A stretch of 64,000 nt of DNA from Kocuria rosea subsp. polaris. Its GTDB lineage: Bacteria > Actinomycetota > Actinomycetes > Actinomycetales > Micrococcaceae. Positions 4,492 through 32,699 of this stretch are shown here, in pieces. The translations under genes and the position numbers were made by a program. The notes under the pieces were generated by a model. That model did no database searches. It was not told the DNA's origin and saw nothing but the letters and a program-made list of their open reading frames with translations. Within the stretch, counting starts at the first letter, position 1. Each line of letters opens with the position of its first letter. The stretch lies in NCBI RefSeq assembly GCF_001483755.1, contig NZ_LQBK01000004.1:207303-271302 (forward strand), in the 5' to 3' direction.

Positions 4492-6300
4492 ATGACCGAG
4501 ACCGACACCGGCGTGCGCGCCGGGACTGACATCGCCCGCACCTGGCTGGCTTCGCTCGAGGAAGCCCTCACGGCCGGCAACGCGGACGCGGCGGCGGCGC
4601 TGTTCGAGGAGGACGGCTTCTGGCGCGACTTCCTGGCGTTCACCTGGAACCTCAAGACCCTGGAGGGCCGCGACCAGATCTGCCGGATGCTCGCGCAGAC
4701 CCTGCCGCACGTCCGGCCCTCTGGGTGGGAGGTCGAGGGTGAGCCCACCACGGCGGACGGGGTGACCGAGTGCTGGGTGCGCTTCGAGACCTCCGCCGGG
4801 TCCGGGTGGGGCTATCTGCGGCTGCGCGACGGGAAGGCGTGGACCCTGCTGACCACGCTGCAGGACCTGCGCGGGTTCGAGGAGCAGAAGGGGTCGCGCC
4901 GGGACCGCGGCGTCGTCCACGAGATCACCCGGGAGCGCACCACCTGGCTGGAGCGGCGCCGGGCGCGGGAGGAGGCCCTCGGCCGGACCGAGCAGCCGTA
5001 CTGCCTCGTCGTCGGCGGCGGACAGGGCGGGATCGGCCTGGCCGCCCGGCTGCAGCGCCTCGGCATCCCCACGATCGTGGTGGACAAGCACGAGAAGGCC
5101 GGAGACGCCTGGCGCAACCGCTACAAGTCCCTGCACCTGCACGACCCGGTCTGGTACGACCACATGCCCTACCTGCCGTTCCCCGACGACTGGCCGGTGT
5201 TCCCCGCCAAGGACAAGATCGCCGACTGGCTCATGCACTACGCCGACATCATGGAGCTCAACTACTGGGCGAAGACCGAGTGCCGGTCGGCCGAGTGGGA
5301 CGAGGAGACGGGGACCTGGACCGTGGTCGTGGACCGCGACGGTGAGGAGATCACCCTGCACCCCACCCAGCTCGTCTTCGCACTGGGCGTCTCCGGGTAC
5401 CCGAGGATCCCCGAGTTCCCCGGCGCGGACGTCTTCCGTGGCGCACAGCACCACTCCTCCGCCCACGCCGGCGGCGACGACTGGGCGGGGAAACGGGCCG
5501 TGGTCATCGGGTCCAACAACTCCGCCCACGACATCTGCGCCGACCTCTGGGAGCACGGGGCCGAAGTCACGATGGTCCAGCGCTCCTCCACCCACATCTC
5601 CCGCAGCGAGTCGCTCATGGACCTCGTCCTGAAACCGCTCTACTCCGAGGAAGCACTGGAGGCCGGCATCACCACGGACCGCGCAGACATGCTGTTCGCG
5701 TCGTGGCCGTACCGGGTCCTGCCGGACGTCCAGCGGCCCGCGTTCGAGGAGATGGCCCGCCGGGACGAGGACTTCTACGCGGCGCTGGAGTCGTCCGGCT
5801 TCGATCTCGACTTCGGGGAGGACGGCTCCGGGCTGTTCCTGAAGTACCTGCGCCGTGGCTCCGGGTACTACATCGACGTGGGCGCCTCGCAGCTGATCAT
5901 CGACGGGCGGGTCCGGCTGGTCTCCGGCCAGGTCGACCACCTCACGGAGGACGCGGTGGTCCTCGACGACGGGACCGAGCTGCCGGCGGACCTGGTCGTC
6001 TACGCCACCGGGTACGGGTCCATGAACGAGTGGCTCGCGGACCTCGTCTCCCCGGAGGTCGCCGACCGGGTCGGCAAGTGCTGGGGCTACGGCTCGGACA
6101 CCACCCGGGACCCCGGGCCCTGGGAGGGCGAGCTGCGGAACATGTGGAAGCCCACCAACGTGGAGAACCTCTGGATCCACGGCGGGAACCTGCACCAGAG
6201 CAGGCACTACTCCAAGTACCTCGCCCTGCAGCTCAAGGCCCGGATGGAGGGTCTGCCCACGCCGGTGTTCGAGCTCGAGGAGTCCCACCACCCCCGGTGA
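4492..6300 (+). CDS. Flavin-containing (FAD/NADPH) monooxygenase with N-terminal NTF2-like domain
   Basis: A 602-residue two-domain protein. Residues 1-140 form an NTF2/SnoaL-like domain (start RTWLASLEEALTAGNADAAAALF). The rest is a class B flavoprotein monooxygenase: FAD-binding VVGGGQGGIGLA (173-184), an FMO-like signature FRGAQHHSS (315-323), the NADPH-binding VIGSNNSAHDI (338-348) and the late DLVVYATGY motif. This architecture resembles plant YUCCA-like and actinobacterial FMOs that oxygenate heteroatoms or ketones; the substrate is unknown. ATG 4492 has GAGGAGG 6 nt upstream. A perfect terminator hairpin follows. The divergent GAF regulator and a CRP-like site probably control it. Confidence 0.88.
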   Translation: MTETDTGVRAGTDIARTWLASLEEALTAGNADAAAALFEEDGFWRDFLAFTWNLKTLEGRDQICRMLAQTLPHVRPSGWEVEGEPTTADGVTECWVRFETSAGSGWGYLRLRDGKAWTLLTTLQDLRGFEEQKGSRRDRGVVHEITRERTTWLERRRAREEALGRTEQPYCLVVGGGQGGIGLAARLQRLGIPTIVVDKHEKAGDAWRNRYKSLHLHDPVWYDHMPYLPFPDDWPVFPAKDKIADWLMHYADIMELNYWAKTECRSAEWDEETGTWTVVVDRDGEEITLHPTQLVFALGVSGYPRIPEFPGADVFRGAQHHSSAHAGGDDWAGKRAVVIGSNNSAHDICADLWEHGAEVTMVQRSSTHISRSESLMDLVLKPLYSEEALEAGITTDRADMLFASWPYRVLPDVQRPAFEEMARRDEDFYAALESSGFDLDFGEDGSGLFLKYLRRGSGYYIDVGASQLIIDGRVRLVSGQVDHLTEDAVVLDDGTELPADLVVYATGYGSMNEWLADLVSPEVADRVGKCWGYGSDTTRDPGPWEGELRNMWKPTNVENLWIHGGNLHQSRHYSKYLALQLKARMEGLPTPVFELEESHHPR

Positions 6301-6628: not shown

Positions 6629-7447
6629 TCACTCCTCGAGCTTCCGGGCCTCCTCCTCCCAGGCGGCGCGGGCGTCCCGGTCCTCGGTGGGCCGGCGGGT
6701 CTCCCGCAGGGCGCGCAGTGCGGCGGTGCGCTGTTTTGCGAGGGACTCCGCGGCGGCTCTCGTGGCGGCGTCCTCGCGGGCCTGGGCCCGGGCGGCGGTG
6801 ACGGCGTCCATGATGTGCTCCACGCCCAGCGCGCCGCCCTCCAGGTAGGCGGCGCGGACGGCCCGGTCCGGGTGGTACAGGTACTGGTCGTTGACCTGGC
6901 CGAGGCTGGTGTCGAACTCCTCGTCGGTCGCGTCGGAGATCATCGCGACCACCCGGTCCAGGCGGGCGTCCACCTGGTCGATGAGGCCGTGGCGTCGCGC
7001 GCTGCCGCGCAGGGACCACAGTGCCCGGCCGTGCTGCCGGAGCCGGTCCGCGTCCCAGTCCGCCTGGGGCACCACGGAGAGGGTCCCGGTGAGGAGCCGC
7101 GCGTCCCTGCTCTCCTCCGGCCGGGGCAGGGAGCGGAGGTGCCACGAGATCCAGGCCGTGCGCATGTTGGAGGCTCCGGCCGCCCGGGCCTCCTCCGCGG
7201 ACGGCTGCCCGGACCAGCGGGGACCGGCCGGTGGCCCGTCGGCGTCGTCGTCGGGAGCGGTCTGCCGGGTGGCGCGGGTCCGGCTCGTGATGAAGCCGGC
7301 GCTGAGCCAGACGAGCAGCCCGGCCAGGGCCAGGCCGAGAAGGGCCGCCCCGCCCAGGAGCAGGAACCGGAACAGGCCGAAGAAGACCACCACGGCGATC
7401 AGGACCACCCATACGGTGGCGCCGCTGCTGCTCCCGGTGTTCTTCAT
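6629..7447 (-). CDS. Membrane-anchored protein of unknown function
   Basis: A 272-residue protein with no recognised family. Residues 11-51 hold two adjacent hydrophobic helices (TVWVVLIAVVVFFGLFRFLLL and a Leu/Ala/Gly-rich second one), so the protein is probably anchored by an N-terminal hairpin. The remaining ~220 residues are soluble, alpha-helical and charged, with a segment AWISWHLRSLPRPEES and a C-terminal Arg/Glu/Ala-rich stretch likely to form a coiled coil (RAQAREDAATRAAAESLAKQ). No catalytic motif is visible. It is preceded only by its own promoter region and ends 58 nt before the small hypothetical frame. Confidence 0.7.
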   Translation of the reverse strand: MKNTGSSSGATVWVVLIAVVVFFGLFRFLLLGGAALLGLALAGLLVWLSAGFITSRTRATRQTAPDDDADGPPAGPRWSGQPSAEEARAAGASNMRTAWISWHLRSLPRPEESRDARLLTGTLSVVPQADWDADRLRQHGRALWSLRGSARRHGLIDQVDARLDRVVAMISDATDEEFDTSLGQVNDQYLYHPDRAVRAAYLEGGALGVEHIMDAVTAARAQAREDAATRAAAESLAKQRTAALRALRETRRPTEDRDARAAWEEEARKLEE

Positions 7448-7518: not shown

Positions 7519-8976
7519 TCAGGTCGCCTTCGCGTGGGTGGAGGCGTCCCGGTAGTCGGTGTACATGTACGGGTTGTCCAGGATCCTGGTCTCGGGGATG
7601 TCGGGGTTCATCCCCTTCTCCCAGGCCTCCTCGCCGAGGGTGGCGCGCAGGTGCTCCACGGTGGCCTCGACCTTCGAGCGCAGGGACCGCAGGTCGACGT
7701 CGACCAGGCGGTGCTCGTGCTTGACCGTCCGGCCGTTGACCAGGACCGTGTGCACGTCGCCACGGCCGGCCTGCAGGGCCACGTGGCCGTAGGGGTTGAG
7801 CATCGGGAAGGACGCGGGCGAGGCGTCGTTCTTGATGAGCACCACGTCGGCCTTCTTCCCCGGCTCGAGGCTGCCCACCGCGTGGTCCAGCGACAGCGCG
7901 GTGGCCCCGCCGCGGGTGGCCCAGTCCACCACGTGCTCGGCGCGCAGGGCCGAGTGCGTCACGGTCTCGCCGGCTTCGTGGGCGCGCAGGTGCTCGTAGG
8001 AGCGGTCGGCGCCGAGGGTGGCGCGCATCGCGACGAACAGGTCGCTGCTGAACCACACGCTGGTGTCGATCGACAGGGACATCGGGATGTCGTGCCGGCG
8101 CAGCACCCAGGACGGCGGGTAGCCCTGCCCGCAGCTCTGCTCGCTCTCCGTGGACAGGGACACGGACCCGCCGGTCGCGCCGATGCGCTGGTAGGAGTCG
8201 TGGCTGAGGGTCGCGGCGTGGACGTAGACCGTGCCCGGGGTCATGAAGCCGTGCTCGTGCATGAGCCGCACGCCGTCGTCGTTGGTGGCGCCCCAGACCC
8301 CGGCGTGCGTGGTCACCGGGAGGTCCAGCTCCCGGGCCACCTCGAAGGCGCCCTTCTCCGGGAAGGACGGGTCACCGGTGACGTCGAAGGCCAGCTGGAA
8401 CTTCAGCATGTCGGAGCGCGGGTTGCGCCGCTCCACGAAGTTCTTGAAGTCCGGGGACGCGCTCCACTCGGAGGGCCCGGCGAAGATGTTGCCGGGGGCG
8501 AAGACGAAGCGCCCGCCGGTCCCCTCGAGCGCCTCCAGCGCGGCCTCGGCGTGGTCGATGGTGCTCAGCCCGTGGGACCAGTCCACGCTGGTGGTCACGC
8601 CGGCGTCCAGGGCGTCGTAGGCCGAGAGCAGGTTGCCCGCGGCGATGTCCTCGGGGCGGAACGCGGTCCCGTGCTCGAGGTAGTACCAGACGAAGTACTG
8701 GGTCAGCGTCCAGTCCGCCCCGTAGCCGCGCATCGCGGTCTGCCACATGTGCCGGTGCGTGTCGATCATCCCGGGCATGATCACGCCCCCGGAGGCATCG
8801 ATCTCGAAGGTCCCCTCGGGGACCTCCAGGGCGGGACCGACGGCCTCGATGTTCTCGCCGACGACGAGGACGTCGGCGTCGGTGAGCACCCGCTTGGACG
8901 CGTCCATCGTCAGGACGGTGCCGTGGCGGAACACGACGGGCTGGCCGGGGGCGGGTGTGCGGGTTTCAGCGGTCAC
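7519..8976 (-). CDS. Metal-dependent amidohydrolase (AtzB/TrzN/SsnA-like deaminase group)
   Basis: A 485-residue amidohydrolase-superfamily enzyme. The metal ligands are seen in order: HxH in GMIDTHRHMWQ, His in PVTTHAGVWG, His in TVYVHAATLS, and Asp in MSLSIDTSVW. The N-terminal FRHGTVLTMDASKRVL and C-terminal GKKADVVLIKND/VNGRTVKHEHRLV strands form the usual beta sandwich. Members of this branch remove amino or chloro groups from N-heterocycles or other cyclic amidines; the substrate here is unknown. The GTG start at 8976 follows AGGAG. It is the last gene of the operon that begins at 13012, 59 nt after the DoxX gene, suggesting a role in preparing a nitrogen-bearing aromatic or its product. 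Confidence 0.8.
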   Translation of the reverse strand: MTAETRTPAPGQPVVFRHGTVLTMDASKRVLTDADVLVVGENIEAVGPALEVPEGTFEIDASGGVIMPGMIDTHRHMWQTAMRGYGADWTLTQYFVWYYLEHGTAFRPEDIAAGNLLSAYDALDAGVTTSVDWSHGLSTIDHAEAALEALEGTGGRFVFAPGNIFAGPSEWSASPDFKNFVERRNPRSDMLKFQLAFDVTGDPSFPEKGAFEVARELDLPVTTHAGVWGATNDDGVRLMHEHGFMTPGTVYVHAATLSHDSYQRIGATGGSVSLSTESEQSCGQGYPPSWVLRRHDIPMSLSIDTSVWFSSDLFVAMRATLGADRSYEHLRAHEAGETVTHSALRAEHVVDWATRGGATALSLDHAVGSLEPGKKADVVLIKNDASPASFPMLNPYGHVALQAGRGDVHTVLVNGRTVKHEHRLVDVDLRSLRSKVEATVEHLRATLGEEAWEKGMNPDIPETRILDNPYMYTDYRDASTHAKAT

Positions 8977-9035
8977 GGTCGACTCCTGGTTGGTGGGTGC
9001 TGGTGGGTGCTGCAGGACGGGTGGACGGGCTGGGC

Positions 9036-9566
9036 TCACCCCGGGCGCGCCGCGGGGCTGCGGCGGAGGACCAGCCACAGAAAGAGCAGGGCGGCGACGG
9101 CGGCCAGCAGGAACGCGGCCGCGCCGATCCCCGTGCCGCCGAGGAACGGGGCCAGTCCCGGAGCGGCGCCGCCGAGCCACGCGTCGGCGGACCAGGCGCC
9201 GGCGCCGGTGAAGGCCAGGACGAGGGCCGCGACGGCGAGCACGTAGGGGTACTCACCGCCCTTCCGGGCGTTCCAGAAGGAGCCTGCGCTGAGCTGGGAG
9301 GTGGCGCCGGCCACGGCCATCGTCCCGGCGGCGGCCGCGGCGCCCAGCGGTGTGAGCAGGCCCAGCAGCAGGGAGACCGCGGCCAGGGCCTCCGTGATGC
9401 TGGCCATCAGCACCATGGGCCGCCCCGGACGCAGTCCCAGGGACTCGAAGGCCCCGGCCATCACCGACAGCCCGAGGCCCTGGAACCAGCCCAGGGACTT
9501 CTGCGCGGCGTGGGCCAGCAGGACCAGGCCCAGCAGGACCCGCAGGAGCAGGATGCCCTCGTCCAT
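9036..9566 (-). CDS. DoxX-family membrane protein
   Basis: A 176-residue integral membrane protein with at least four hydrophobic helices; residues 5-20 (ILLLRVLLGLVLLAHA) and the KSLGWFQGLGL segment match the DoxX family. DoxX proteins sit beside oxidoreductases and have been linked to quinone or thiol redox handling, but a precise role is unknown. GGAGGT precedes the ATG. It lies between the LigA-like and amidohydrolase genes (30 and 59 nt gaps) and is presumably co-transcribed. Confidence 0.8.
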   Translation of the reverse strand: MDEGILLLRVLLGLVLLAHAAQKSLGWFQGLGLSVMAGAFESLGLRPGRPMVLMASITEALAAVSLLLGLLTPLGAAAAAGTMAVAGATSQLSAGSFWNARKGGEYPYVLAVAALVLAFTGAGAWSADAWLGGAAPGLAPFLGGTGIGAAAFLLAAVAALLFLWLVLRRSPAARPG

Positions 9567-9596
9567 GACGACCTCCGTTCACGACCGTCCGGGCGC

Positions 9597-9962
9597 CTAC
9601 AGCGCCACGGAGGGATAGGGCTTGCCGGTCCAGGCCTCGAGCCGCTTCGCCCAATTCCGCTGGTAGGACAGCGGGCCCAACTCCCGCGCCCAGTCCTCGT
9701 CGAAGAGGCCGATGAACAGGGTGAGGTAGAGGAAGAAGTGGGCGCCGTAGGCGAACAGCCACTCGTAGTCGTAGGTCTCCAGGGCCCGGCGCTCGTCCTC
9801 GGTGAAGGACAGCCACGAGGTCTTCTCCGCGGCATTGAGCCAGGTGCCGACCTCCTCCTCCCACGCGGTGATCGCGGCCGCCGGGTCCGCCTTGTACCGG
9901 GCGACCCAGGCGGGGTCGCGGTCCACGGTGTAGAGGAACTTGTTGACGTAGTACTTGCTCAT
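9597..9962 (-). CDS. LigA-type small subunit of a class III extradiol dioxygenase
   Basis: A 121-residue all-helical subunit matching the LigA/protocatechuate 4,5-dioxygenase alpha family, with KFLYTVDRDPAWVARYKADPAAAI and YEWLFAYGAHFFLYLTLF. LigA caps the active site of LigB and does not bind iron. The ATG overlaps the ligB-like stop by 4 nt (ATGA), so the two are translationally coupled. The order LigB then LigA is the reverse of Sphingobium ligAB and matches the domain order within fused gallate dioxygenases (GalA/DesB), which makes gallate-like substrates plausible. Confidence 0.85.
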   Translation of the reverse strand: MSKYYVNKFLYTVDRDPAWVARYKADPAAAITAWEEEVGTWLNAAEKTSWLSFTEDERRALETYDYEWLFAYGAHFFLYLTLFIGLFDEDWARELGPLSYQRNWAKRLEAWTGKPYPSVAL

Positions 9963-10939
9963 GCCGACGCACCTTCCTTCACGGAGTCCTTCGCGGAGTC
10001 CTGCCCGGTGTCCTGCCCGGCGCGGACGGGACCGAGGACGGCCCCGGAGGACGCGGCGGCCCGGGCCGCCGCGGCGGCCTGCTGCTCGGTCTTGCCCGGG
10101 TACCAGGTCATGAACATCTCCCGGGTGTGGAAGAGGTCCAGCTGGTCCACGTAGTCGGCCTCCTCGGGGCCGGCGATGCCCATCATGAGGATCAGGTCCA
10201 TGAACCCGTGGGTGGCGTTGCCGGCCGCGGCCATGGACTCGTGGGTGACGTCGGCCAGGATCGCCTCGATGTTGCCGGTGGACAGCCACTCGATGGCCTT
10301 CGCGTCGAACGCCGGGTCCGGGCCGTGCTCGCCGAACATCCGGGGCCCGCCCAGTTCCAGGGACAGGTGGCCGGTGCCGATGGCGGCGACCTTCTTGTCG
10401 GAGGGCCATGCGTCGATGATCCTGCGGATGGCCCGACCGAGGTCCCAGAACCGCTTCGGGGAGGGCAGGGGCGGGGCGAAGATGTTGGTGTAGATGGGCA
10501 CCACCGGCAGATCGGCCTCCGGGCGCACGGTGATGATGGGGCAGACGATGGAGTGGTCGATCTTCAGTTCGTGGCTGAAGGAGAAGTCGAAGCCGGCCTC
10601 CAGCAGCTCCTCGTGCAGGTGGTTGGACAGCTCCACGTCGCCGTCGAGCAGGTACTCGGGCAGCCCGAACTCACGGACCTCGTTGTAGAAGGTCGCGTCG
10701 TACTTCTCCTGCTTGCCGATCAGGAAGGTCGGGTAGTTGTCCAGGAAGAACTGGTGGAAGTGGTCGGCGCCGACCATCACCAGCACGTCCGGCTCGGCGG
10801 CCGTCAGGGTGTCGCGGTAGGCCTCGACCTTGCGCTGCCACTCGTCGGCCTGCGGCATCCGGTTCTCGGAGTGGTCGGTGGTGGCCCGGAGGTAGAACGG
10901 GTGGTGCGTGCTGGCCAGCACGGCCGTCAGATCAGCCAT
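9959..10939 (-). CDS. LigB-type catalytic subunit of a class III extradiol dioxygenase
   Basis: A 326-residue class III ring-cleavage dioxygenase catalytic subunit. Candidate iron ligands are His12 (STHHPFY) and His60 (GADHFHQFF), the catalytic His is His191 (AIGTGHLSLEL), and HESM at 233-236 supplies a candidate Glu ligand. The C-terminal 45 residues are a low-complexity Ala/Gly/Ser tail. Relatives open protocatechuate, gallate or related catechols with Fe(II) and O2. It is the fourth gene downstream of the CoA-transferase promoter in reverse (CoA-transferase, lyase, LigB, LigA, DoxX, amidohydrolase). The ATG at 10939 has an AGGAGA site. Confidence 0.87.
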   Translation of the reverse strand: MADLTAVLASTHHPFYLRATTDHSENRMPQADEWQRKVEAYRDTLTAAEPDVLVMVGADHFHQFFLDNYPTFLIGKQEKYDATFYNEVREFGLPEYLLDGDVELSNHLHEELLEAGFDFSFSHELKIDHSIVCPIITVRPEADLPVVPIYTNIFAPPLPSPKRFWDLGRAIRRIIDAWPSDKKVAAIGTGHLSLELGGPRMFGEHGPDPAFDAKAIEWLSTGNIEAILADVTHESMAAAGNATHGFMDLILMMGIAGPEEADYVDQLDLFHTREMFMTWYPGKTEQQAAAAARAAASSGAVLGPVRAGQDTGQDSAKDSVKEGASA

Positions 10940-10973
10940 CGGTCGTCTTCTCCTGCTCGGGTGGTTCGGGGTC

Positions 10974-11792
10974 TCAGGCGTTCGGGGTCTCGCCGGGCTC
11001 GACGTAGACGGCGTGGCGGTCCACGGCCGTGTAGATGTCCTGGGCGATCGGGTGGCGCTTCTCCTCGGCGATCTGGCCCAGCAGCCCGGCCGAGCGGGCC
11101 AGCAGGGCGAAGCCGCGCAGCAGGTCGGTGGGCAGGCCCAGGTCGGCCAGGGCCGCCCCGCAGACCCCGGCACCGTTGAGCGGCAGGCGCCGGCCCAGGA
11201 CCGGCCCGCTCATCCGCCCGATCGCCTCGAACAGCCGCAGGTGCGGGCCGCGCAGCCCCTCCTCCTCGGCGATGCCGATGAGCACCGGGGTCCGCGGGTC
11301 GCCATCCTTGTGGTTGGGGTGGCCCAGGCCGGGCACGAACTTCCCGGCCGCCTTCTGGGCACGGATGGCCTTCGCGGCCATCTCGTCCCACTCCGCGTCG
11401 GTGCCGGGCAGTTCGCCCTCGCGGGCGGCCAGGGTGGCGGCCAGGAACTGCCCGCAGTCCTCGGTCACCCCCAGGAAGCGGGACCCGCCCCCGAGCAGAC
11501 CCGCCGCCATCGCGCCCTGCACGGAGTCCGGGGCGCTGAGATAGGTGACGCGGGCGGCGATGGCGGTGGGGGTGAAGCCGTGGTCGGCCAGGGCGACGAG
11601 CACGGACTCGAAGACCCGCACCTCGCCGGCGGTGGGCCGGCGCATCGCGACCAGCCAGAACGCCAGTTCGCCGAAGCCGACCTTGCCCATCAGGTCCTGG
11701 GCCAGGTCCTGGCCCAGCAGCCGGATCTCCGTGGCGCTGGAGGTGCCCAGGGACGTGGGGAAGCGCAGTGCCGGCTCGGGCTCGGTGGTCAT
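10974..11792 (-). CDS. Citryl-CoA-lyase-like protein (citrate synthase C-terminal fold)
   Basis: A 272-residue protein made only of the citrate-synthase large-domain portion, as in citryl-CoA lyases. It has the diagnostic VPGLGHPNHKDGDPRTP motif (153-169), where His158 and the following Asp/Arg bind the CoA thioester, and GRRLPLNGAGV before the C-terminal helices. Enzymes of this type cleave a tertiary-alcohol acyl-CoA to a keto acid plus acetyl-CoA or similar. Its start overlaps the CoA-transferase stop by 1 nt. Next to a ring-cleavage dioxygenase it probably splits the CoA ester of the ring-fission product; that is inference. Confidence 0.78.
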   Translation of the reverse strand: MTTEPEPALRFPTSLGTSSATEIRLLGQDLAQDLMGKVGFGELAFWLVAMRRPTAGEVRVFESVLVALADHGFTPTAIAARVTYLSAPDSVQGAMAAGLLGGGSRFLGVTEDCGQFLAATLAAREGELPGTDAEWDEMAAKAIRAQKAAGKFVPGLGHPNHKDGDPRTPVLIGIAEEEGLRGPHLRLFEAIGRMSGPVLGRRLPLNGAGVCGAALADLGLPTDLLRGFALLARSAGLLGQIAEEKRHPIAQDIYTAVDRHAVYVEPGETPNA

Positions 11793-13012
11793 CAGGACTC
11801 CTTCCGCGGAACGGTGGTCGTGGCGGTGGTCGGGGTGGCCTCCGGCGTGCTGAGCCAGGCGCGGACCTGGTCGGTGTGCTCGCCCAGCTCGGGCGGGGCC
11901 AGGTCGTAGCGCGGCGGGGTGGCCGAGAACGTCACCGGGTGGCGCACCACCGGCACCGCCCGCTCGCCCGTGCCGGCGCTCACCACCGGCTCCAGGCCGA
12001 GTTCCTTGGCGTACTCGACGCCCTGCCCGATCGTGTTGATGGGACCGTTGGGCACGCCGACCTCGTTGAGCTCGGCGAACCAGTGCTTCGCGGGGTGCTT
12101 GCGCAGCTGCTCCACGAGCAGGGGGCGCAGCTGCTCCCGGTTCGCGGTGCGGTCGCCGTTCTCGGCGAACCGGGGGTCCTCGGCGACCTCGGGGATGCCC
12201 AGCGCCGTGCACAGCCTGCGGAACTGGGCGTTGTTGCCCGCGGTGACGATGAGGTCGTCGTCGGCGGTGGGCAGCGGCTCGTAGGGGAAGAGGCTGGGGT
12301 GGGCATTGCCCATCCGGTGCGGCACCACCCCGCCGGCCACGTAGGCGGCGGTCTGGTTGACCAGCCCGCTCATCGCGGAGGCCATCAGGCTGGCCTCGAG
12401 GTGCTGACCGGTCCCGGTGGCGTCCCGGTGGCGCAGGGCGGCCAGGACGGCGACGGCGGAGTGCAGCCCGGCCATGACGTCGAAGACGCTGATCCCCGCC
12501 CGGAACGGCGATCCGTCCGGATCGCCCGTGAGGCTCATCAGCCCGGACATGGCCTGGACGATGAGGTCGTAGCCCGGCAGCGAGGCACCCTCCGCGGAGC
12601 CGAAGCCGCTGATCGAGCAGTAGACCACCGCCGGGTTGGCCTCGGCCACCGCGGCGTAGTCCAGGCCGAAGCGCTCCAGGCCGCCGGGCTTGAAGTTCTC
12701 GATCACCACGTCGGCCCGCCGAGCCAGTGCCTGGGCCGTGGCCAGGTCGTCGGCGTCCGTGAAGTCCAGGACCACGGACTTCTTGCCGCGGTTGATCGCG
12801 GTGTAGTAGGTCGACACCCCGTCCGGGCGGACCGGCGGGACCCACGTGCGGGTGTCGTCCCCAGCCGGGCCCTCCACCTTGATCACCTCGGCCCCGAGGT
12901 CGGCCAGCAGCATCGTGGCGTACGGGCCGGCCAGCACGCGGGAGAAATCGGCGACCACCACCCCTTCGAGCGGGCGGGCCGCGCCGACGGGCGGGTCCTC
13001 GGTGCTGTTCAC
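11792..13012 (-). CDS. CaiB/BaiF family III CoA-transferase
   Basis: A 406-residue family III CoA-transferase. Characteristic segments are VVVADFSRVLAGPYATMLLADLGAEVIKVE (written here only as a landmark near residues 18-47), NRGKKSVVLD, ADVVIENFKPG, the catalytic-Asp region GYDLIVQAMSGLM and GNAHPSLFPYE. These enzymes move CoA between carboxylic acids. The GTG start has GGAGG 5 nt upstream. It is the first gene of the six-gene minus-strand operon and is divergent from an IclR regulator, so it probably activates a tricarboxylate intermediate for the following lyase. Confidence 0.87.
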   Translation of the reverse strand: MNSTEDPPVGAARPLEGVVVADFSRVLAGPYATMLLADLGAEVIKVEGPAGDDTRTWVPPVRPDGVSTYYTAINRGKKSVVLDFTDADDLATAQALARRADVVIENFKPGGLERFGLDYAAVAEANPAVVYCSISGFGSAEGASLPGYDLIVQAMSGLMSLTGDPDGSPFRAGISVFDVMAGLHSAVAVLAALRHRDATGTGQHLEASLMASAMSGLVNQTAAYVAGGVVPHRMGNAHPSLFPYEPLPTADDDLIVTAGNNAQFRRLCTALGIPEVAEDPRFAENGDRTANREQLRPLLVEQLRKHPAKHWFAELNEVGVPNGPINTIGQGVEYAKELGLEPVVSAGTGERAVPVVRHPVTFSATPPRYDLAPPELGEHTDQVRAWLSTPEATPTTATTTVPRKES

Positions 13013-13203: not shown

Positions 13204-13998
13204 ATGTCGGGTCGCAGTGAGACCGCGGGCTTCGTCGAGGCGCTCGCCCGGGGGCTGGACGTCATCCAGGCCTTCGGCGCCGATCGGCCGCGGATGTCGC
13301 TGACCGAGGTGGCCTCGGCGACCGGGCTGGCCCGGCCCACGGCGCACCGGCTGCTGCTGACCCTCAAGGAGCTCGGGTTCGTCCGGCAGGTCGACCGGGA
13401 GTTCCAGCTCACCGTCCGCGTCGTCGATCTCGGGATGTCCTACGTGGACTCCCTGGGGCTCTGGGACATCGCCAGGCCCCACCTGGAGGCGCTGGTGGGC
13501 AGGACGGGGGAGTCCTCCTCCATGGCCCAGCTCGACGGCGCCGACATCGTCTACACCGCGCGGGTGTCCGTGCCCAAGATCATCGCCCTGCGCGTGGAGC
13601 TCGGCACCCGGTTCCCCGCCGCGGTGACCTCCCAGGGCAAGGTGCTGCTGTCCGGGCTGGAGGCCGCGCAGGTGCACGCCGCCCTCGACACGCCGTCCCG
13701 GTCCTCCGTCCGGACCCGTCCCGTGGATCGTGCGCGGCTGCTCGAGGAGCTCGAGCTCGTGCGGGAGCGGGGGTGGGCCGTGGCCGACGAGGAGCTCGCC
13801 CCCGGGGTCCGCTCCATCGCCGCGCCGGTCACGGACGAGTCCGGGCGGGTCGAGTCCACCGTCAACATCACGGTCCACGCCGCGGAGACCCCGCTCGAGA
13901 CGCTCACCGACGAGTACCTGCCCCACCTGCTGCGCACCGCGGACGCGATCTCCGCGGACTGGGCCGCCTGGCGCCGGCGCCCCCGCCGCGACGGCTGA
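13204..13998 (+). CDS. IclR-family regulator (PcaR/PcaU-like) of the ring-cleavage operon
   Basis: A 264-residue IclR protein: N-terminal winged helix (about 10-72, MSLTEVASATGLARPTAHRL) and effector domain with the landmarks LRVELGTRFPAAVTSQGKVLL and GVRSIAAPV. It resembles PcaR/PcaU regulators, which respond to protocatechuate-pathway intermediates. It is transcribed away from the CoA-transferase/LigAB operon across a 191-nt gap with an operator-like palindrome and a CRP-like motif. ATG 13204 has GGAAGAGGG upstream. It is likely the local regulator; the effector is unknown. Confidence 0.87.
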   Translation: MSGRSETAGFVEALARGLDVIQAFGADRPRMSLTEVASATGLARPTAHRLLLTLKELGFVRQVDREFQLTVRVVDLGMSYVDSLGLWDIARPHLEALVGRTGESSSMAQLDGADIVYTARVSVPKIIALRVELGTRFPAAVTSQGKVLLSGLEAAQVHAALDTPSRSSVRTRPVDRARLLEELELVRERGWAVADEELAPGVRSIAAPVTDESGRVESTVNITVHAAETPLETLTDEYLPHLLRTADAISADWAAWRRRPRRDG

Positions 13999-16937: not shown

Positions 16938-17792
16938 TCAGGCGGTGCCCCACGGCCGGTGCGTGAGCCCGTGGGCGCCCCGGTAGTCCGGGGAGGCGGG
17001 CTCGGACCAGCCCTGCAGCAGCTCGTCGTCGAGGGCGTGGACGGTCACGGCCAGGGGGTGGCAGATCTCGACGGGGTCGGTGACGCCGGGGCCGAACATC
17101 GGCTTGGACAGGTCCCCGCCCGGGCACGTGGAGAGCGCCACGAGCAAATCCTGCTCGGCGAAGAACTCGAAGTGGTCGCCGGGAGCGGCCGGGCAGGTCT
17201 TCATGAAGTACTGGTCGTCGGCGTTGAGCCCGGTGCACTGGAAGACGTTGAGCACGTCGTGGACGTCGAACTCGGTGAGGCCCCAGGGCAGCACGGCCCG
17301 GACGAGGTTGGAGTGGCAGTGGTAGTCGAAGTCCACGCCGTTGAGCATGCTCGAGACGTAGGGATCGCACCGGGTGCCGAGGGTGTCGTGCACGCGCCCG
17401 CCCTCGGCGTCGACCCCGTAGCCGGCCAGGGTGTCGCCCACGATCGTGGCCATCGGGCGCAGGAACGGCAGGGTGGACCACAGCCGGTCGAAGGTGCTCA
17501 CGTGGGCGGCCTGCAGCTGCCGGGTGCGGGAGGCCCAGAACCGTTCCCGGGGGTCGTGCCGGTTCCAGAGATTCAGGTCCCCCACCTGGGGGCCCTCCAC
17601 GGTGGCGATGCGGCACACGTGCCCGGCCGGCACCTCCCACGCCGCGCCCGAGCGGATGGGCACGGTCAGCTCCCGGACCAGGGTGCGCCGGTCCGTCTCG
17701 GCGCCGATGCGCCCGTAGAAGTCCCGGTCGACCTCGAGGGCCGCGCCCTGGTAGGCGGCCTGGGTGAGTCGCGGGTCGGGGTTCGGTGCCAT
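16938..17792 (-). CDS. DUF1989-family (urea carboxylase-associated type) protein
   Basis: A 284-residue DUF1989 protein. Landmarks are the N-terminal VPAGHVCRIATVEGPQVGDLNLW, SSMLNGVDFDYHCHSNLVRA with Cys/His, the FQCTGLNADDQYFMKTCPA segment and LSTCPGGDLSKPMFGP. Relatives include the urea-carboxylase-associated proteins and the CgdA/CgdB carboxyguanidine deiminase subunits, which act on carboxylated amidines. It is separated from the divergent creatininase gene by 168 nt and lies near an operon of biotin-carboxylase and pxp genes. A deiminase or hydrolase role on a carboxylated nitrogen compound is inferred. Confidence 0.8.
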   Translation of the reverse strand: MAPNPDPRLTQAAYQGAALEVDRDFYGRIGAETDRRTLVRELTVPIRSGAAWEVPAGHVCRIATVEGPQVGDLNLWNRHDPRERFWASRTRQLQAAHVSTFDRLWSTLPFLRPMATIVGDTLAGYGVDAEGGRVHDTLGTRCDPYVSSMLNGVDFDYHCHSNLVRAVLPWGLTEFDVHDVLNVFQCTGLNADDQYFMKTCPAAPGDHFEFFAEQDLLVALSTCPGGDLSKPMFGPGVTDPVEICHPLAVTVHALDDELLQGWSEPASPDYRGAHGLTHRPWGTA

Positions 17793-17960
17793 GGGGTGTC
17801 CTTGCCTGCCGGGTGGGGATCGCCGGGGCGTGACGACGACGGCCGTGCTCGCCGGGGCGCTGTCCGTTCTGCTCCGACCCTAGCAACCGTGACCCCGGCG
17901 CCCGAGAGGCCTACAGTCGGCCCCAGGGGCACAGCGGTGCCCGCAGCGGAGGAGGCCACC

Positions 17961-18803
17961 ATGACCGAGTCGTCGGAGACCGCCGGCGGACTGCCGTCCG
18001 TCTGGATGCAGGACCTCACCTGGGAGGAGGTCGCCGGCTACCTCGAGCGGGAGCGGATCGCGCTCGTGCCCGTGGGCAGCACCGAGCAGCACGGGCCCGC
18101 GGGCGTGCTGGGCGTCGACTCCTACGTGGCCATCACCCTGGCCGAGGACGTCGCCCAGCGCACCGGCGTCCTGTGCACGCCGCCGATCTGGTACGGGGAC
18201 TCCACCCACCACGCCGGGTTCCCCGGGACGCTCAGCATCTCGGCCGGGACGCTCTCGCTGCTGGTCCGCGACATCTGCCGGAGCCTGGCCCGGCACGGGT
18301 TCGACCGGATCGTGCTGATCAACGGGCACAAGGGCTCCAACCTGCCCGCGCTGACCACCTCGCTGCGCGAGCTGCACGAGGAGCAGCTGCCCGGTGTGCT
18401 GTTCGCCGTGGCCGACCCGCTGCACCTGGCCCGCTCCGCCGCGCCCTCCATCAAGGAGGTGAACGAGCACCACGCCGGGGAGCTCGAGCTCTCCCACGTC
18501 CACCACCGGATCCCGGGCTCCGTGCGGACCGACCGGCTCACCGGCGCGGGCGTGGACTTCCAGCAGGTCTTCGGCGGCTTCGTGGGCGACGACCTGTTCG
18601 GGCCCGCCCCCGACGGGGTGGACATCATCTGGTCCGGCGACGAGCAGCGGCGCTTCACCCCGACCGGCAGCTTCAGCTCCTCCCTGGGCCTGGACGAGGA
18701 CAAGGGGCGCCGCTACCACGACCACATCGTGGCCCGCCTCTGCGAGCTCGTCGACTGGCTGCGGAGCTACGACGGGCCCGTCGGCGCCGGCCCGGCCGCC
18801 TGA
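17961..18803 (+). CDS. Creatininase-family amidohydrolase
   Basis: A 280-residue creatininase-family enzyme. The metal-site motifs are complete: Glu42 and His44 in VPVGSTEQHGP, Asp53 in GVDSY, NGHKGSN (121-127) and HHAGELELS with Glu174. Family members hydrolyse creatinine or other cyclic amides such as in riboflavin F420 biosynthesis (MftE, FAPy deformylase). ATG 17961 follows GGAGGAGG. Context (DUF1989 divergent, pxp/biotin operon convergent) points to a ring-opening amidohydrolase in nitrogen scavenging; the true substrate is not predictable. Confidence 0.82.
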   Translation: MTESSETAGGLPSVWMQDLTWEEVAGYLERERIALVPVGSTEQHGPAGVLGVDSYVAITLAEDVAQRTGVLCTPPIWYGDSTHHAGFPGTLSISAGTLSLLVRDICRSLARHGFDRIVLINGHKGSNLPALTTSLRELHEEQLPGVLFAVADPLHLARSAAPSIKEVNEHHAGELELSHVHHRIPGSVRTDRLTGAGVDFQQVFGGFVGDDLFGPAPDGVDIIWSGDEQRRFTPTGSFSSSLGLDEDKGRRYHDHIVARLCELVDWLRSYDGPVGAGPAA

Positions 18804-18853
18804 CCGCTCTCGCCGCCGGGGCGGGCACCGGCCGGCGCCCACCCCGCTGAGCG

Positions 18854-18868
18854 GGAGCGGTCCGCTCC
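18854..18868. terminator. Palindrome between convergent creatininase and pxpC
   Basis: GGAGCGG-T-CCGCTCC is a perfect 15-nt palindrome, preceded by an imperfect GGGCACCGGCCGGCGCCC stem at about 18821-18838. They lie between two convergent stops and probably help termination. Confidence 0.35.
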
Positions 18869-18930
18869 AGAACTTCCGGAGCAGCCCGCGAGTCCTTCCT
18901 CCGGGACGGCACGATCGGCCCGGAGAGCGG

Positions 18931-19896
18931 TCACAGCGCCCAGATCTCCTCCAGCCGTTCGGCCCGCTCCCGGCGCGCCTGCAGCGCCTCCTCCATCGGC
19001 ACCGCCCGGAACCGGGTCACCGTGCCCGGGGCGGCCCGGGCCAGCAGGTCCATGTCCGCGGAGATCACGGTGCCCACCATGGCGTAGCCGCCGCCGGAGA
19101 CCGCGTCCCGGTGCAGCACGATCGGCTGGGTGCCGCCGGGGACCTGGATGGAGCCCACGGCGTAGCCGGCGTCCACGATGTTGGAGGGGTCCGAGCCGGC
19201 GCCGAAGGGCTGCTCCCGCTGGATCCACTCCACGCCGGGGCCCTCGAAGCGCAGGCCCATGCGGTCGGCCACGGGGGTGAGCCGCCACTCCTCCTCGACC
19301 AGCCGGCGCCGGCCCTCCTCGGTGAGCAGGTGGTCGTAGAGGCCCCACATGATCCGCAGCTCCAACGACCTCCCGAAGGCGGGCCGGAGGCGCTCCGGGA
19401 TCTCCTCGACCTCGGGCAGCAGACCGGTGGGCTCGCCCACGGGCACCACGTCCCCGGCCTCCAGCTTCCGGCCCTCCACCCCGCCCAGCCGCCCGATCGC
19501 GTAGGTGGAGCGTGAGCCGAGCACCTCCGGCACGTCGATGCCGCCGCGGACCGCCAGGTAGAAGCGGGCGCCGCCGCGGAGCACCCCGAACCGCACGGCG
19601 TCCCCCGCCACGAGCTCGAGCCGCCGCCACGCCGGGTGCTCCTCGCCGTTGACCAGCACGGGGACGTCCGCGCCGGTCACCGCGACCGTCGTCGGGGCGT
19701 CCACGGTGAAGGAGGGTCCCGTGTAGGTGCACTCGAGCACGGCCTCGGCCGCGGTGTTGCCGACCAGCTTGTTCGCCGCCTGCGCGGACTCCTGGTCCAT
19801 GGCCCCGCCCTGCGGGATGCCCACGTGGTAGTACCCGATCCGCCCCTGGTCCTGGACGGTGGTCAGCAGTCCGGGCTGCTCAATCGTCAGCGCCAT
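18931..19896 (-). CDS. pxpC: 5-oxoprolinase subunit C / KipA-type carboxyltransferase-like protein
   Basis: A 321-residue protein of the allophanate-hydrolase-subunit-2/KipA family: LLTTVQDQGRIGYYHVGIPQGGAMD at the start is the family hallmark, followed by GARFYLAVRGGIDVPEVLGSRSTY and the C-terminal ISADMDLLARAAPGTVTRFR. In Bacillus PxpABC opens 5-oxoproline to glutamate using ATP; the same fold makes up part of urea amidolyase. The start overlaps the pxpB stop by 17 nt. The presence of biotin genes upstream makes the alternative name 'biotin-dependent carboxyltransferase' possible. Confidence 0.87.
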   Translation of the reverse strand: MALTIEQPGLLTTVQDQGRIGYYHVGIPQGGAMDQESAQAANKLVGNTAAEAVLECTYTGPSFTVDAPTTVAVTGADVPVLVNGEEHPAWRRLELVAGDAVRFGVLRGGARFYLAVRGGIDVPEVLGSRSTYAIGRLGGVEGRKLEAGDVVPVGEPTGLLPEVEEIPERLRPAFGRSLELRIMWGLYDHLLTEEGRRRLVEEEWRLTPVADRMGLRFEGPGVEWIQREQPFGAGSDPSNIVDAGYAVGSIQVPGGTQPIVLHRDAVSGGGYAMVGTVISADMDLLARAAPGTVTRFRAVPMEEALQARRERAERLEEIWAL

Positions 19897-20788
19897 CGAG
19901 GGCCTCCAGGAGGGTGCGGTTGTAGCGGTCGGGATCGGCCAGCGCGGCCTCGACGTCGAGGGTCACGGGCGCCTGCCGGTACCGCCAGGTGCCGTCCTCG
20001 ACCTGCTGCTGGATGGAGCGGTACTCGGCCTCGTCGACGGGCCGGAACTTCACGAGGTCCCCGGGTCTGAACAGGATGAGGAAGTCCCGGAAGTCGTGCA
20101 GGACCTGTCCGGGGTCGTAGATGGGGGCGGCGGCGATGCCGAACATCTGGTAGCCGCCGGCCCCGCGGACCGAGTAGATGCAGGCGAAGCAGCCGCCGTG
20201 CCCCACGGTCAGCGGAGGGGTGTCGGTGCGGGGGCTGAGGTACTTGGGCACCTCGAGCTGCCGGTCACGGGGCACGAGCTGGTACATGAACGGCAGCCCG
20301 GCCACGAACCCTACCATGGACACCAGCCACGGGGACTCGTGGTGGCGCCGGATGAACTCGGCGGCGTCCGCGAGCCCGTTCACCTTCGCGGCGTAGTCGA
20401 GGTCGGTGCCGGAGGGATCCTGGTGGTAGCCCTCCCGGAAGCGCGCCACGACCTCGGCGGTGTAGGGGTCCTGGTACCAGACGGGGACCTCGATGATCCG
20501 GGTCTCGACGGTGTACTGCGTGGACTCGCGGGCCCGGCCCTCGAGCTCCTGGGTGCGGCGCTTCAGGTCCGCGGCCTCGAGGACGTCCGGGTCGAAGCGC
20601 ACCAGCAGGGACGCGTTGGCGGGGCAGACGTCCACCACGCCGGGCAGGTCCAGCGCGGTGAGCCCCTGCGCCACAGTGGTGGCCAGGTAGTTGGCGGTGA
20701 GGTTCATGGCTTCGTCGAACTCCACGAACAGGAACTCGTCACCGCCCCACGTGTACCGGGCGGTGGGCAGGTACAGGGTCTCGGTCAT
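19880..20788 (-). CDS. pxpB: 5-oxoprolinase subunit B / KipI-type protein
   Basis: A 302-residue protein, somewhat longer than Bacillus KipI (about 240) because of an extended N-terminus. It has the KipI/allophanate-hydrolase-subunit-1 core: VDVCPANASLLVRFDPD, VPVWYQDPYTAEVV, FIRRHHESPWLVSMVGFVAGLPF and GGCFACIYSVRGAGGYQMFG. It is thought to form the catalytic complex with PxpC. Its ATG overlaps the biotin carboxylase stop by 4 nt, indicating coupled translation within the pxpA-accB-accC-pxpB-pxpC operon. Confidence 0.87.
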   Translation of the reverse strand: MTETLYLPTARYTWGGDEFLFVEFDEAMNLTANYLATTVAQGLTALDLPGVVDVCPANASLLVRFDPDVLEAADLKRRTQELEGRARESTQYTVETRIIEVPVWYQDPYTAEVVARFREGYHQDPSGTDLDYAAKVNGLADAAEFIRRHHESPWLVSMVGFVAGLPFMYQLVPRDRQLEVPKYLSPRTDTPPLTVGHGGCFACIYSVRGAGGYQMFGIAAAPIYDPGQVLHDFRDFLILFRPGDLVKFRPVDEAEYRSIQQQVEDGTWRYRQAPVTLDVEAALADPDRYNRTLLEALDGADD

Positions 20789-22185
20789 GGTGCGCTCCCC
20801 TCGTCGGGTGTGTCGCCGGGAACGCCGCTGGGCCGGTCGCCCAGCAGCTCGGTCTCGATCCAGGTGGTGTGGTGCGCCACGGCTGCGAACTCCGGGTCCA
20901 GGACGAGCCGCCGCAGCAGCGGCACCGTGGTCCTGATCCCCTCCACGTGCGTGGCGGCCAGGGCCGCGCCCATCCGCTGCACGGCCGTCTCCCGGTCCTC
21001 GGCGTGCACGATCAGCTTGGCCAGCAGGGAGTCGTAGTACGGGGCCACGACGTCCCCGGCGCGCACACCGGTGTCCACGCGGTACTCGGGTCCCTCCGGC
21101 CAGTCGAGGCGGCTGATGGTGCCCGGGCTCGGCATGAACTTCTTCTCCGGGTCCTCGGCGTTGATCCGGCACTCCACGGAGTGCCCGTCGAGGACGACGT
21201 CCTCCTGCCGCAGCCGCGTCCGCCCGGTGGAGGCGATCGTGAGCTGCTCGGCGACCAGGTCCACGCCCGTGACGAACTCGGTGACCGGGTGCTCCACCTG
21301 CAGGCGGGTGTTCATCTCGATGAACGCCGCCTCGTGCCGGACGGGGTCGTAGAGGTACTCGACCGTGCCCACCCCCGTGTAGGAGCAGAGCCGGGCCAGG
21401 TTCACGGCGGAGTCCCGGATGCGCTCGCGGACCTCGTCCGGCAGGTCCGGGGCGGGGGCCTCCTCCACGATCTTCTGGGAGCGGCGCTGCAGGGAGCAGT
21501 CGCGGTCGCCCAGGTGCAGGAACGTGTGCCCGTCGCCGAGGACCTGGACCTCCACGTGCCGGGCCCGCTCCACGAACCGCTCCAGGTACACCGTGGGGTC
21601 CCCGAAGCTCGCCCCGGCCTCGGAGCGGGCGGTGTCGACGGTCCGCAGCAGGTCCTCCTCGGCGCGGACCAGCCGGATGCCGCGCCCGCCACCGCCGGCC
21701 GAGGCCTTGACGACGAGCGGGTAGCCGACCTCCCGGGCCAGCGCCAGGACGGCGTCGTCGTCGCCCTCGAGGGGACCGTTCGAGCCGGCGAGGACGGGCA
21801 CTCCGGCCGCGATCGCGGCCTCGAGCGCCCGGGTCTTGTGACCCATGAGGTCGATGACGTCGGGGGACGGGCCCACCCACGTCAGCCCGGCCTCCTGCAC
21901 GCGCCGGGCGAAGGCGGCGTTCTCGGAGAGGAACCCGTAGCCGGGGTGCACCGCGTCGCAGCCGTGCTCCAGGGCGGCGGCCACGAGCGCCTCCGCGTCC
22001 AGGTAGGACTTCTGCGCCGGGGCGGGCCCCACCACGGCCACCTCGTCGGCGAGCTCCGCCGCCAGCGACTCCCGGTCCGCCTCGCTCACCGCCAGGACGG
22101 TGCGCAGGCCCAGCTCCCGGGCCGAGCGCAGGATCCGGACCGCGATCTCGCCCCGGTTGGGCACCAGGAGCGTGGCGATCGGCAC
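20785..22185 (-). CDS. Biotin carboxylase (AccC-like), part of the pxp operon
   Basis: A 466-residue biotin carboxylase with ATP-grasp fold. Landmarks: LVPNRGEIAVRILRSARELG (N-domain), CDAVHPGYGFLSENAAFA, the glycine-rich loop KASAGGGGRGIRLV, ERARHVEVQVLGDG and the catalytic EMNTRLQVEHPVTE. It carboxylates biotin on the carrier protein with ATP and bicarbonate. It starts (GTG) 3 nt after the carrier stop and overlaps pxpB. No acyl-CoA carboxyltransferase gene is nearby, so the acceptor is probably handled by PxpB/PxpC. Confidence 0.88.
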   Translation of the reverse strand: MPIATLLVPNRGEIAVRILRSARELGLRTVLAVSEADRESLAAELADEVAVVGPAPAQKSYLDAEALVAAALEHGCDAVHPGYGFLSENAAFARRVQEAGLTWVGPSPDVIDLMGHKTRALEAAIAAGVPVLAGSNGPLEGDDDAVLALAREVGYPLVVKASAGGGGRGIRLVRAEEDLLRTVDTARSEAGASFGDPTVYLERFVERARHVEVQVLGDGHTFLHLGDRDCSLQRRSQKIVEEAPAPDLPDEVRERIRDSAVNLARLCSYTGVGTVEYLYDPVRHEAAFIEMNTRLQVEHPVTEFVTGVDLVAEQLTIASTGRTRLRQEDVVLDGHSVECRINAEDPEKKFMPSPGTISRLDWPEGPEYRVDTGVRAGDVVAPYYDSLLAKLIVHAEDRETAVQRMGAALAATHVEGIRTTVPLLRRLVLDPEFAAVAHHTTWIETELLGDRPSGVPGDTPDEGSAP

Positions 22186-29641: not shown

Positions 29642-29647
29642 GGGTTC

Positions 29648-30163
29648 CTAGAGCACCGGTTCCAGCAGGCCGGCCGGCAGGCGCACGCCGAGCAGCTCGG
29701 TGAAACCGAAGTAGACGGCGGCGGAGAACAGCACGGCGACGACGACGTCGCGCAGCAGGTGGCGGCTGCCCGCCAACCGGGCGACGACCGCGAAGAAGGC
29801 CGCCGTGGCGATGACGTAGCCCAGCGGCTCGAGCAGGAAGGCGTAGACGACGAGCACGCCGATGACGGCCCACAGGGTCCGCCAGTGCGTGCGCGCGTGC
29901 TCCTCCGCGGCCTGCTCCAGCAGGGCGCGGTCCGGAGCCGCCGTGGCGCGCACCAGGAACGCGACCCCGAAGACCACCAGCCCGATCCCGACGATCAGCG
30001 GGAAGAAGCCGGGCTGCTGCGGGCCGAACCCGCCCGAGCTCGCGATGCGGATCGCGTCGACCAGGACCACCGCCGCGCCGAGCACGACGACGACGGCGGC
30101 GATCCTGGTCCCGAGCCTGCCCCCGGAGGGGCCGGCCTCGGCGCGCGCGGGCCTGGAGCTCAC
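29648..30163 (-). CDS. tctB: Tripartite tricarboxylate transporter, small permease TctB
   Basis: A 171-residue protein with four hydrophobic helices (about 20-42, 50-70, 95-115, 130-160) and the TctB motif GFFPLIVGIGLVVFG. Together with TctA it forms the membrane part of the transporter. The GTG start overlaps the tctC stop by 4 nt (GTGA). Confidence 0.85.
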   Translation of the reverse strand: MSSRPARAEAGPSGGRLGTRIAAVVVVLGAAVVLVDAIRIASSGGFGPQQPGFFPLIVGIGLVVFGVAFLVRATAAPDRALLEQAAEEHARTHWRTLWAVIGVLVVYAFLLEPLGYVIATAAFFAVVARLAGSRHLLRDVVVAVLFSAAVYFGFTELLGVRLPAGLLEPVL

Positions 30164-31182: not shown

Positions 31183-31294
31183 GCGGACCGTCCTCAGCGG
31201 TAGGGCCGCGGCGTGCGTCCGCCGCGGGGAGCGGAACAGCGTCGGCCTCGTCGCCGATCGCAGAAGCAACCAGGTGCCTCGGAGTCGACCCTAT

Positions 31295-32578: not shown

Positions 32579-32626
32579 GGCACACCCTTTCCGGAGGACA
32601 GGACGGAGGATCTCCGGACAGCGTAG

Positions 32627-32660
32627 ACGGGGCGGCGCGCCCTCCGGCGCGCCGCCCCGT
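32627..32660 (-). terminator. Terminator after gntP
   Basis: A perfect 15-bp stem, ACGGGGCGGCGCGCC / GGCGCGCCGCCCCGT with loop CTCC, positioned 39 nt beyond the gntP stop on its strand. Confidence 0.75.
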
Positions 32661-32699
32661 TCCACCAGCTTCCGCGGCGCTGCCGCAGGAGTCCTGGAG

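Follow-up and report, generated by a model that had tools for sequence, protein, structure and literature searches.

Among described routes of aromatic-ring cleavage, the protocatechuate 4,5-cleavage and gallate pathways (LigAB/DesB, LigJ or GalB, GalD, and LigK or GalC) provide the natural point of comparison for the operon considered here, namely six genes of Kocuria rosea subsp. polaris at 7519-13012 of a 64,000-nucleotide stretch of contig NZ_LQBK01000004.1 (positions 207,303 to 271,302; hereafter the window). The operon shares with these pathways a LigB–LigA class III extradiol dioxygenase pair and an IclR regulator of the aromatic type encoded nearby. In contrast to them, it also codes for a coenzyme A (CoA)-transferase of the family III CaiB/BaiF type (hereafter CoAT) and a citryl-CoA-lyase-like protein with the citrate-synthase fold (hereafter CCL), its LigB lacks both the glutamate iron ligand and the equivalent of His195, and no relative of the LigK aldolase was found in the window.

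The succession of CoA transfer and lyase action has a precedent in itaconate and citramalate degradation, where a CoA-transferase, a hydratase and a citramalyl-CoA lyase yield acetyl-CoA and an α-keto acid. The logic is the same, but the lyase-like protein of the operon has the citrate-synthase fold and its precursor is presumably aromatic, whereas the known citramalyl-CoA lyases, to our knowledge, have folds other than that of citrate synthase. With the Hydrogenobacter citryl-CoA lyase and the corresponding modules of ATP-citrate lyase, CCL shares fold, size, a sequence relationship, the histidine of the GH motif and the arginine of the DPR motif; it differs from them in having Ala, Ser or Thr in place of the Asp of NVDG and in residing in a ring-cleavage operon together with a CaiB CoA-transferase. 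Finally, the 4-hydroxypyridine-degrading kpi cluster of Arthrobacter IN13 likewise combines an Amidohydro_1 protein with an actinobacterial ring-cleavage context, and its flavin adenine dinucleotide (FAD)-dependent hydroxylase has a counterpart near some relatives of the operon (PMC7356986). In contrast, that cluster is reported to have no homolog of a ring-opening dioxygenase, and the term CoA does not occur in the paper's main text (PMC7356986). Full-text literature searches, which miss most subscription journals, returned no description of the combination found here; one paper mentions a citryl-CoA lyase (citE) and, at an unrelated point, an extradiol gene (PMC13118837). We favor, with moderate confidence, the interpretation that the operon specifies aerobic ring cleavage followed by lower steps that proceed through CoA thioesters: LigBA would open the ring, CoAT would activate the product and CCL would cleave it.

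Conservation of the Operon

The sequence-only reading of this DNA had placed CoAT, CCL, LigB, LigA, DoxX and amidohydrolase genes in that order on the minus strand, and all six are indeed there. The genes for CoAT (11792-13012, minus strand; 406 amino acids) and CCL (10974-11792, minus strand; 272 amino acids) overlap at stop and start, as do those for the LigB-type catalytic subunit (9959-10939, minus strand; 326 amino acids) and the LigA-like small subunit (9597-9962, minus strand; 121 amino acids), the latter pair by 4 bases. Absent from that list was a divergent IclR gene (13204-13998, plus strand), whose product is nearest to the PcaR/PcaU/PobR model (TIGR02431; 247 bits, below the cut-off of 285) and probably controls the operon.

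LigB relatives were gathered by a scan of one genome per species, which returned 491, and the best 80 loci were analyzed with up to 10 kb on each flank (12 of them span less than 19 kb), partner genes being called by tblastn at an E-value of 1e-8. A LigA relative adjoins LigB in all 80, CoAT and CCL are both found near LigBA in 75, and genes for an IclR protein and the amidohydrolase accompany it in 73 and 61, respectively. The hosts include Actinobacteria (Arthrobacter, Nesterenkonia, Occultella, Cryobacterium, Herbiconiux and others) and Pseudomonadota, mostly Alphaproteobacteria (Neorhizobium, Mesorhizobium, Bradyrhizobium and relatives of Roseobacter). Thus, LigB–LigA with CoAT and CCL is a conserved module that occurs in two phyla.

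A second view comes from 297 genomes of the order, searched for CCL relatives at an E-value of 1e-10 and then for LigB. Twenty-four have a CCL relative, and 19, the genome of the window included, have a close one. The 18 other loci with a close CCL all encode CoAT, CCL and LigB (one LigB being cut by a contig end), with LigA and IclR in 17 each and the amidohydrolase in 16. A close LigB is present in 21 genomes, namely the 19 with a close CCL and two more (G071 and G063), and 276 have neither gene (Fisher p 5e-28 for the co-occurrence, without correction for kinship). Both exceptions appear to be decayed modules: G063 has only a partial LigB, and in G071, whose copy is perhaps still decaying, LigB is kept beside just a C-terminal fragment of CCL (contig C6, near 108507-109555). 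Six more genomes of the order have a LigB relative at 34-38 percent identity without a close CCL. A chance neighborhood was ruled out by the recurrence of the module in the order loci, the 80 LigB loci and the 297 genomes.

The components of the canonical lower pathway are all but missing from the related loci. In tblastn searches (E 1e-6) with Azospirillum queries against 105 related loci, including two without LigB (L052 and L059), and setting aside the control locus L143, the LigK aldolase was found in none, and the GalD tautomerase and LigJ hydratase in one each, none of these being in the window; GalB was not searched for. Other parts of the genome carry two RraA-like genes. The conservation of CoAT and CCL, taken with the near-absence of these relatives, supports a CoA-dependent branch that replaces the hydratase and aldolase, and on this point the sequence-only reading is supported. 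A canonical protocatechuate or gallate cluster was rejected as a label for the operon, because few or no relatives of the aldolase, tautomerase and hydratase turned up and LigB does not conform to the glutamate-containing site.

The CoA-Transferase, the Lyase-Like Protein and Their Contexts

CoAT matches CoA_transf_3 over its full length (399 bits; model positions 1-366 of 366), and its nearest NCBIfam models are the succinate-glutarate, oxalate and mesaconate CoA-transferases, all below cut-off. Compared with the window, the alphaproteobacterial-type loci have a LigB of 67-78 percent identity, a CoAT of about 30-34 percent and a CCL of 30-38 percent along the full alignment (35-41 percent for local matches). 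A single clade uniting the actinobacterial and alphaproteobacterial CoATs of the module was rejected by the approximately unbiased (AU) test (p 0.00024, with five outside rows and long branches, and with the longest-branched row, L152, left out); the alphaproteobacterial ones group instead with CoA-transferases of Cupriavidus and Roseomonas loci without LigB (support 100/99.9). LigBA is therefore accompanied by at least two lineages of CaiB, an indication that CoA activation of the LigBA product is truly needed.

The affinities of CCL lie with the citrate-synthase fold. It matches Citrate_synt (62 bits) and the NCBIfam citryl-CoA lyase model PRK06224.1-5 (275 bits against a cut-off of 193), and its predicted structure, with a mean predicted local-distance difference test (pLDDT) score of 93.5, finds as its best PDB match the citryl-CoA lyase 6hxp (template-modeling score 0.80, E 1.4e-13). 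Residues were counted in 100 CCL, 98 LigB and 60 amidohydrolase rows (clean-start frames came from 75 of the 80 loci for LigB and from 59 of 61 for the amidohydrolase); as the rows drawn from L035-L053 and L060-L139 in part represent a given locus twice, the LigB and CCL rows are not all independent. His158, His161, Arg167, Asn206 and Arg233 of CCL are invariant.

Relatives of CCL away from LigB also keep company with CoA-activating enzymes. We opened 16 plasmid loci, picked from 115 records (L145-L152 and L158-L164 among them, e.g., L146:7980-12022; the gene table for the plasmids is incomplete), and neither LigB nor LigA occurs in the analyzed stretch of any of them. A CoA-transferase or an acyl-CoA synthetase/ligase is encoded within three annotated genes of CCL in 13 of these 16. 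L145, L147 and L148 depart from this pattern, but L147 does have a CoA-transferase-like stretch that is not annotated. In Cupriavidus necator N-1 the gene order is CCL, CaiB, LeuC, LeuD, which suggests that a hydroxy-acid of the citramalate type made by LeuCD is then activated and cleaved. Judging from such neighbors, CCL probably acts on a CoA thioester.

Active-Site Losses and Alternative Readings

Several observations weigh against the proposed pathway, some from the distribution of the genes and others from the active sites. CoAT and CCL are wanting in the analyzed stretch of five of the 80 LigB loci (L067, L094, L098, L121 and L138), and just 2 of 27 genomes of the genus carry the gene, which makes the module a patchy one. 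On a plasmid of Rhodococcus rhodochrous BX2 (L059:6057-12783), a CoAT and a CCL that are 68 and 73 percent identical to those of the window adjoin genes for a VOC protein, an FAD oxidoreductase, an NTF2-like protein and an alpha/beta hydrolase, without LigBA. A common origin of the LigB-linked CCLs was not rejected (AU p 0.274), so that the case for repeated pairing with LigBA comes from CoAT, with its few outside sequences and long branches. Independent recruitment of CCL is accordingly not supported by this test, the fairer of two; an earlier one (p 5e-60) was not used because its group omitted close relatives without LigB.

Further, the neighboring genes name no common substrate. Among the 80 LigB loci, a flavin reductase-like gene is found in 26, YciI in 13, LeuD in 4, a MetE-like protein in 4, an FAD aromatic hydroxylase within 10 kb in 6, and a relative of the 2,6-dihydroxypseudooxynicotine hydrolase in 3; together with CocE, these occur in some loci and none is universal. 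The neighbor proteins scanned for such clues were those of L054-L057. The FAD hydroxylase of L054 clears the cut-off of the 3-(3-hydroxyphenyl)propionate hydroxylase model, which supports a diol being made for LigBA in such loci, and the hydrolase beside it is, among solved structures, most like the 2,6-dihydroxypseudooxynicotine hydrolase.

With respect to the active sites, the column of the NVDG Asp in CCL has Ala in 59, Ser in 40, Thr in 1 and Asp in none of the 100 rows, the window having Ala. We take this residue to be the catalytic Asp of citryl-CoA lyases and citrate synthases; the NVD motif is kept by the aligned solved citryl-CoA lyases and by the citrate synthase of this very genome. 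The Asp is likewise missing from all 17 CCLs away from LigB and is kept in all four paralogs. As an observation in its own right, a large Asp-less family named citryl-CoA lyase thus exists away from LigB, mostly beside a CoA-transferase or an acyl-CoA ligase. The loss raises the possibility, which we regard as unlikely, that CCL acts on a CoA thioester as a hydrolase, isomerase or hydratase and that the carbon skeleton is split elsewhere. In keeping with such a role, PDB titles describe D-to-A mutants of ATP citrate lyase solved with substrates or citryl-CoA (7rig, 6znw), in which the mutated Asp is presumably the one absent from CCL; however, the fold and His158, Arg167 and Arg233 are retained in every row, and the LeuC–LeuD, MaoC, CitE-type lyase and PrpD-type companions in some of the other loci fit the cleavage of a hydroxy-acid. 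The sequence-only reading had a lyase of the citrate-synthase fold split the CoA ester: the fold and the adjacent CoA-activating partner are in line with this, whereas the Asp of citryl-CoA lyases is gone. Hence, citryl-CoA lyase is here the label of a fold, and we infer cleavage of a citryl-type thioester instead of reading it from family membership.

The catalytic subunit of the dioxygenase presents a comparable case. LigB matches Pfam LigB well above threshold (107 bits against 26.3), and its predicted structure (pLDDT 80.9) is closest to DesB and LigAB, the best Foldseek hit being DesB (E 2.6e-19); the LigA-like subunit scores 20.2 bits against Pfam LigA, under the cut-off of 25.3. The iron ligands of LigB are given as His12, His61 and Glu242, with roles for His127 and His195, and DOD and YgiD as having a three-histidine iron site (PMC11926856). 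In all 98 rows of our alignment, the equivalents of the two histidine ligands and of His127 are conserved, and His12, His13, His60, His62, His129, His191, Glu195, His271 and Glu274 (in the numbering of the window protein) are invariant. However, the Glu242-equivalent column is Gly (Gly245) and the His195 equivalent is Leu194 throughout, and His244, the neighbor of Gly245, is present in 85 of the 98 rows, so that neither a Glu nor a constant DOD/YgiD-type His occupies the place of the third ligand. As the active-site loops of the model are poorly predicted (pLDDT below 50 at 64-67, 196-203 and 240-242), it does not name the third iron ligand. Among other relatives, the Glu is kept in all four of L140, L142, L143 and L144, and the His195 equivalent is His in L140, L143 and L144 and Leu in L142. 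A 37 percent identical LigB relative on a plasmid of Rhizobium rhizogenes K84 (L141:6001-6879), annotated as a 2,3-dihydroxybiphenyl dioxygenase, also lacks the Glu; thus, the Glu-less branch of LigB is wider than this module.

These residues bear directly on the more exact version of the sequence-only reading, in which protocatechuate or gallate is the substrate of LigBA and the thioester split by CCL is that of 4-carboxy-4-hydroxy-2-oxoadipate. That the nearest solved relatives of LigB are the gallate and protocatechuate 4,5-dioxygenases and that the IclR protein is nearest to the PcaR/PobR model are in line with it, but we judge it improbable in view of the loss of both the Glu ligand and the His195 equivalent. 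Moreover, 4-carboxy-4-hydroxy-2-oxoadipate is cleaved by a plain aldolase without CoA, relatives of the tautomerase and hydratase occur in one of the 105 loci each and of the aldolase in none, and both RraA-like genes lie apart from the operon. Intradiol dioxygenase genes (PF00775) are also present elsewhere in the genome, so that protocatechuate need not be the substrate.

The remaining enzyme is the Amidohydro_1 (cog0402-like) metallo-enzyme encoded at 7519-8976 on the minus strand (485 amino acids with the GTG start chosen; Amidohydro_1 87 bits, above cut-off; NCBIfam PRK08204.1 366 bits, below its cut-off of 391). Its metal site of HxH, His, His and Asp is kept in 59 or 60 of the 60 rows at each position, and the Glu of HxxE, which we take to be a motif of the cog0402 deaminases and chlorohydrolases, is replaced by Val, Thr, Ala or Pro in all 60. 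The amidohydrolase had previously been considered a hint of an amino- or nitrogen-containing ring, which it does not clearly indicate, given the loss of this Glu and the report that KpiC, itself an Amidohydro_1 protein, is the extradiol dioxygenase that opens 3,4-dihydroxypyridine (PMC7356986). By this analogy, drawn from the description of KpiC and not from sequence, the amidohydrolase might be the ring-opening dioxygenase, with LigBA catalyzing another step; the retained metal site, the missing HxxE Glu and the lost Glu ligand of LigB would all suit such an arrangement. We nevertheless consider it very improbable: no amidohydrolase turned up in 19 of the 80 loci (12 of the 68 that exceed 19 kb), whereas LigBA is constant, and the identity of the rhizobial amidohydrolases falls to about 30 percent where LigB stays at 67-78 percent. 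Taken together, the FAD hydroxylase, the dihydroxypseudooxynicotine-type hydrolase and KpiC point to polyhydroxylated aromatics or hydroxypyridines, without deciding between them.

In sum, with LigB devoid of its Glu and CCL of its Asp, either named step may be something else.

Other Genes of the Operon and the Window

The gene at 9036-9566 (minus strand; 176 amino acids) encodes a DoxX-like membrane protein (Pfam DoxX, 54 bits). A core role for DoxX was ruled out by its presence in 13 of the 80 LigB loci; with a single occurrence among the 18 order loci, it is better seen as an optional passenger. Near the operon, on the opposite strand, is a gene for a 602-amino-acid flavin-containing monooxygenase-like protein (4492-6300, plus strand), and downstream is one for a 272-amino-acid protein whose N-terminal stretch is hydrophobic and which matches no Pfam family (6629-7447, minus strand). 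Farther off are genes for a DUF1989 protein (urea-amidolyase-associated models), a CT_A_B carboxyltransferase-domain protein and a biotin carboxylase (16938-22185, minus strand), as well as the tripartite tricarboxylate transporter genes TctA and TctC (28124-31269, minus strand) and a major facilitator superfamily (MFS) gene (31373-32665).

Conclusions

From the gene content, conservation, co-occurrence and residue losses described above, we infer the reactions, substrate and order of steps in the following scheme for the CoA-dependent pathway. LigB–LigA would open an aromatic or N-heteroaromatic diol acid, which in some relatives is perhaps made by the FAD hydroxylase encoded nearby. The amidohydrolase, joined in some loci by YciI, might then hydrolyze, rearrange or tautomerize the ring-opened product to a polycarboxylic and probably α-hydroxylated acid. 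CoAT would place CoA on one carboxyl of this acid, and CCL, with His158, Arg167 and Arg233 gripping the α-hydroxy-acid end, would break the C–C bond to release an acyl-CoA and an α-keto acid. The loss of the Asp could be tolerable if the acyl-CoA carbanion were stabilized, e.g., as a 1,3-dicarbonyl. The sequence-only reading is thus partly supported: its outline, with a CoA-dependent lower branch, is right, but the enzymology is unproven or doubtful.

More tentatively, and with rather more doubt than conviction, we advance a broader proposal: that these loci represent a widespread and undescribed form of aromatic or N-heteroaromatic catabolism, in which a LigB with a rebuilt iron site (the carboxylate or third histidine now being supplied by the invariant GHLSLE loop or by His271/Glu274) passes its product to a CaiB CoA-transferase and an Asp-less lyase of the citrate-synthase fold, the latter typifying a class of lyases that cleave acyl-CoAs without the catalytic Asp. 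Should the CoA-dependent scheme outlined above be right, an Asp-less branch of the citrate-synthase fold would be defined, along with a LigB branch whose third iron ligand is not the usual Glu. It would then follow that, in many soil, plant-associated and marine bacteria, whose genes are labeled citryl-CoA lyase, extradiol dioxygenase, amidohydrolase and the like, meta-cleavage can end in the cleavage of a CoA thioester and not in the action of a hydratase and an aldolase.

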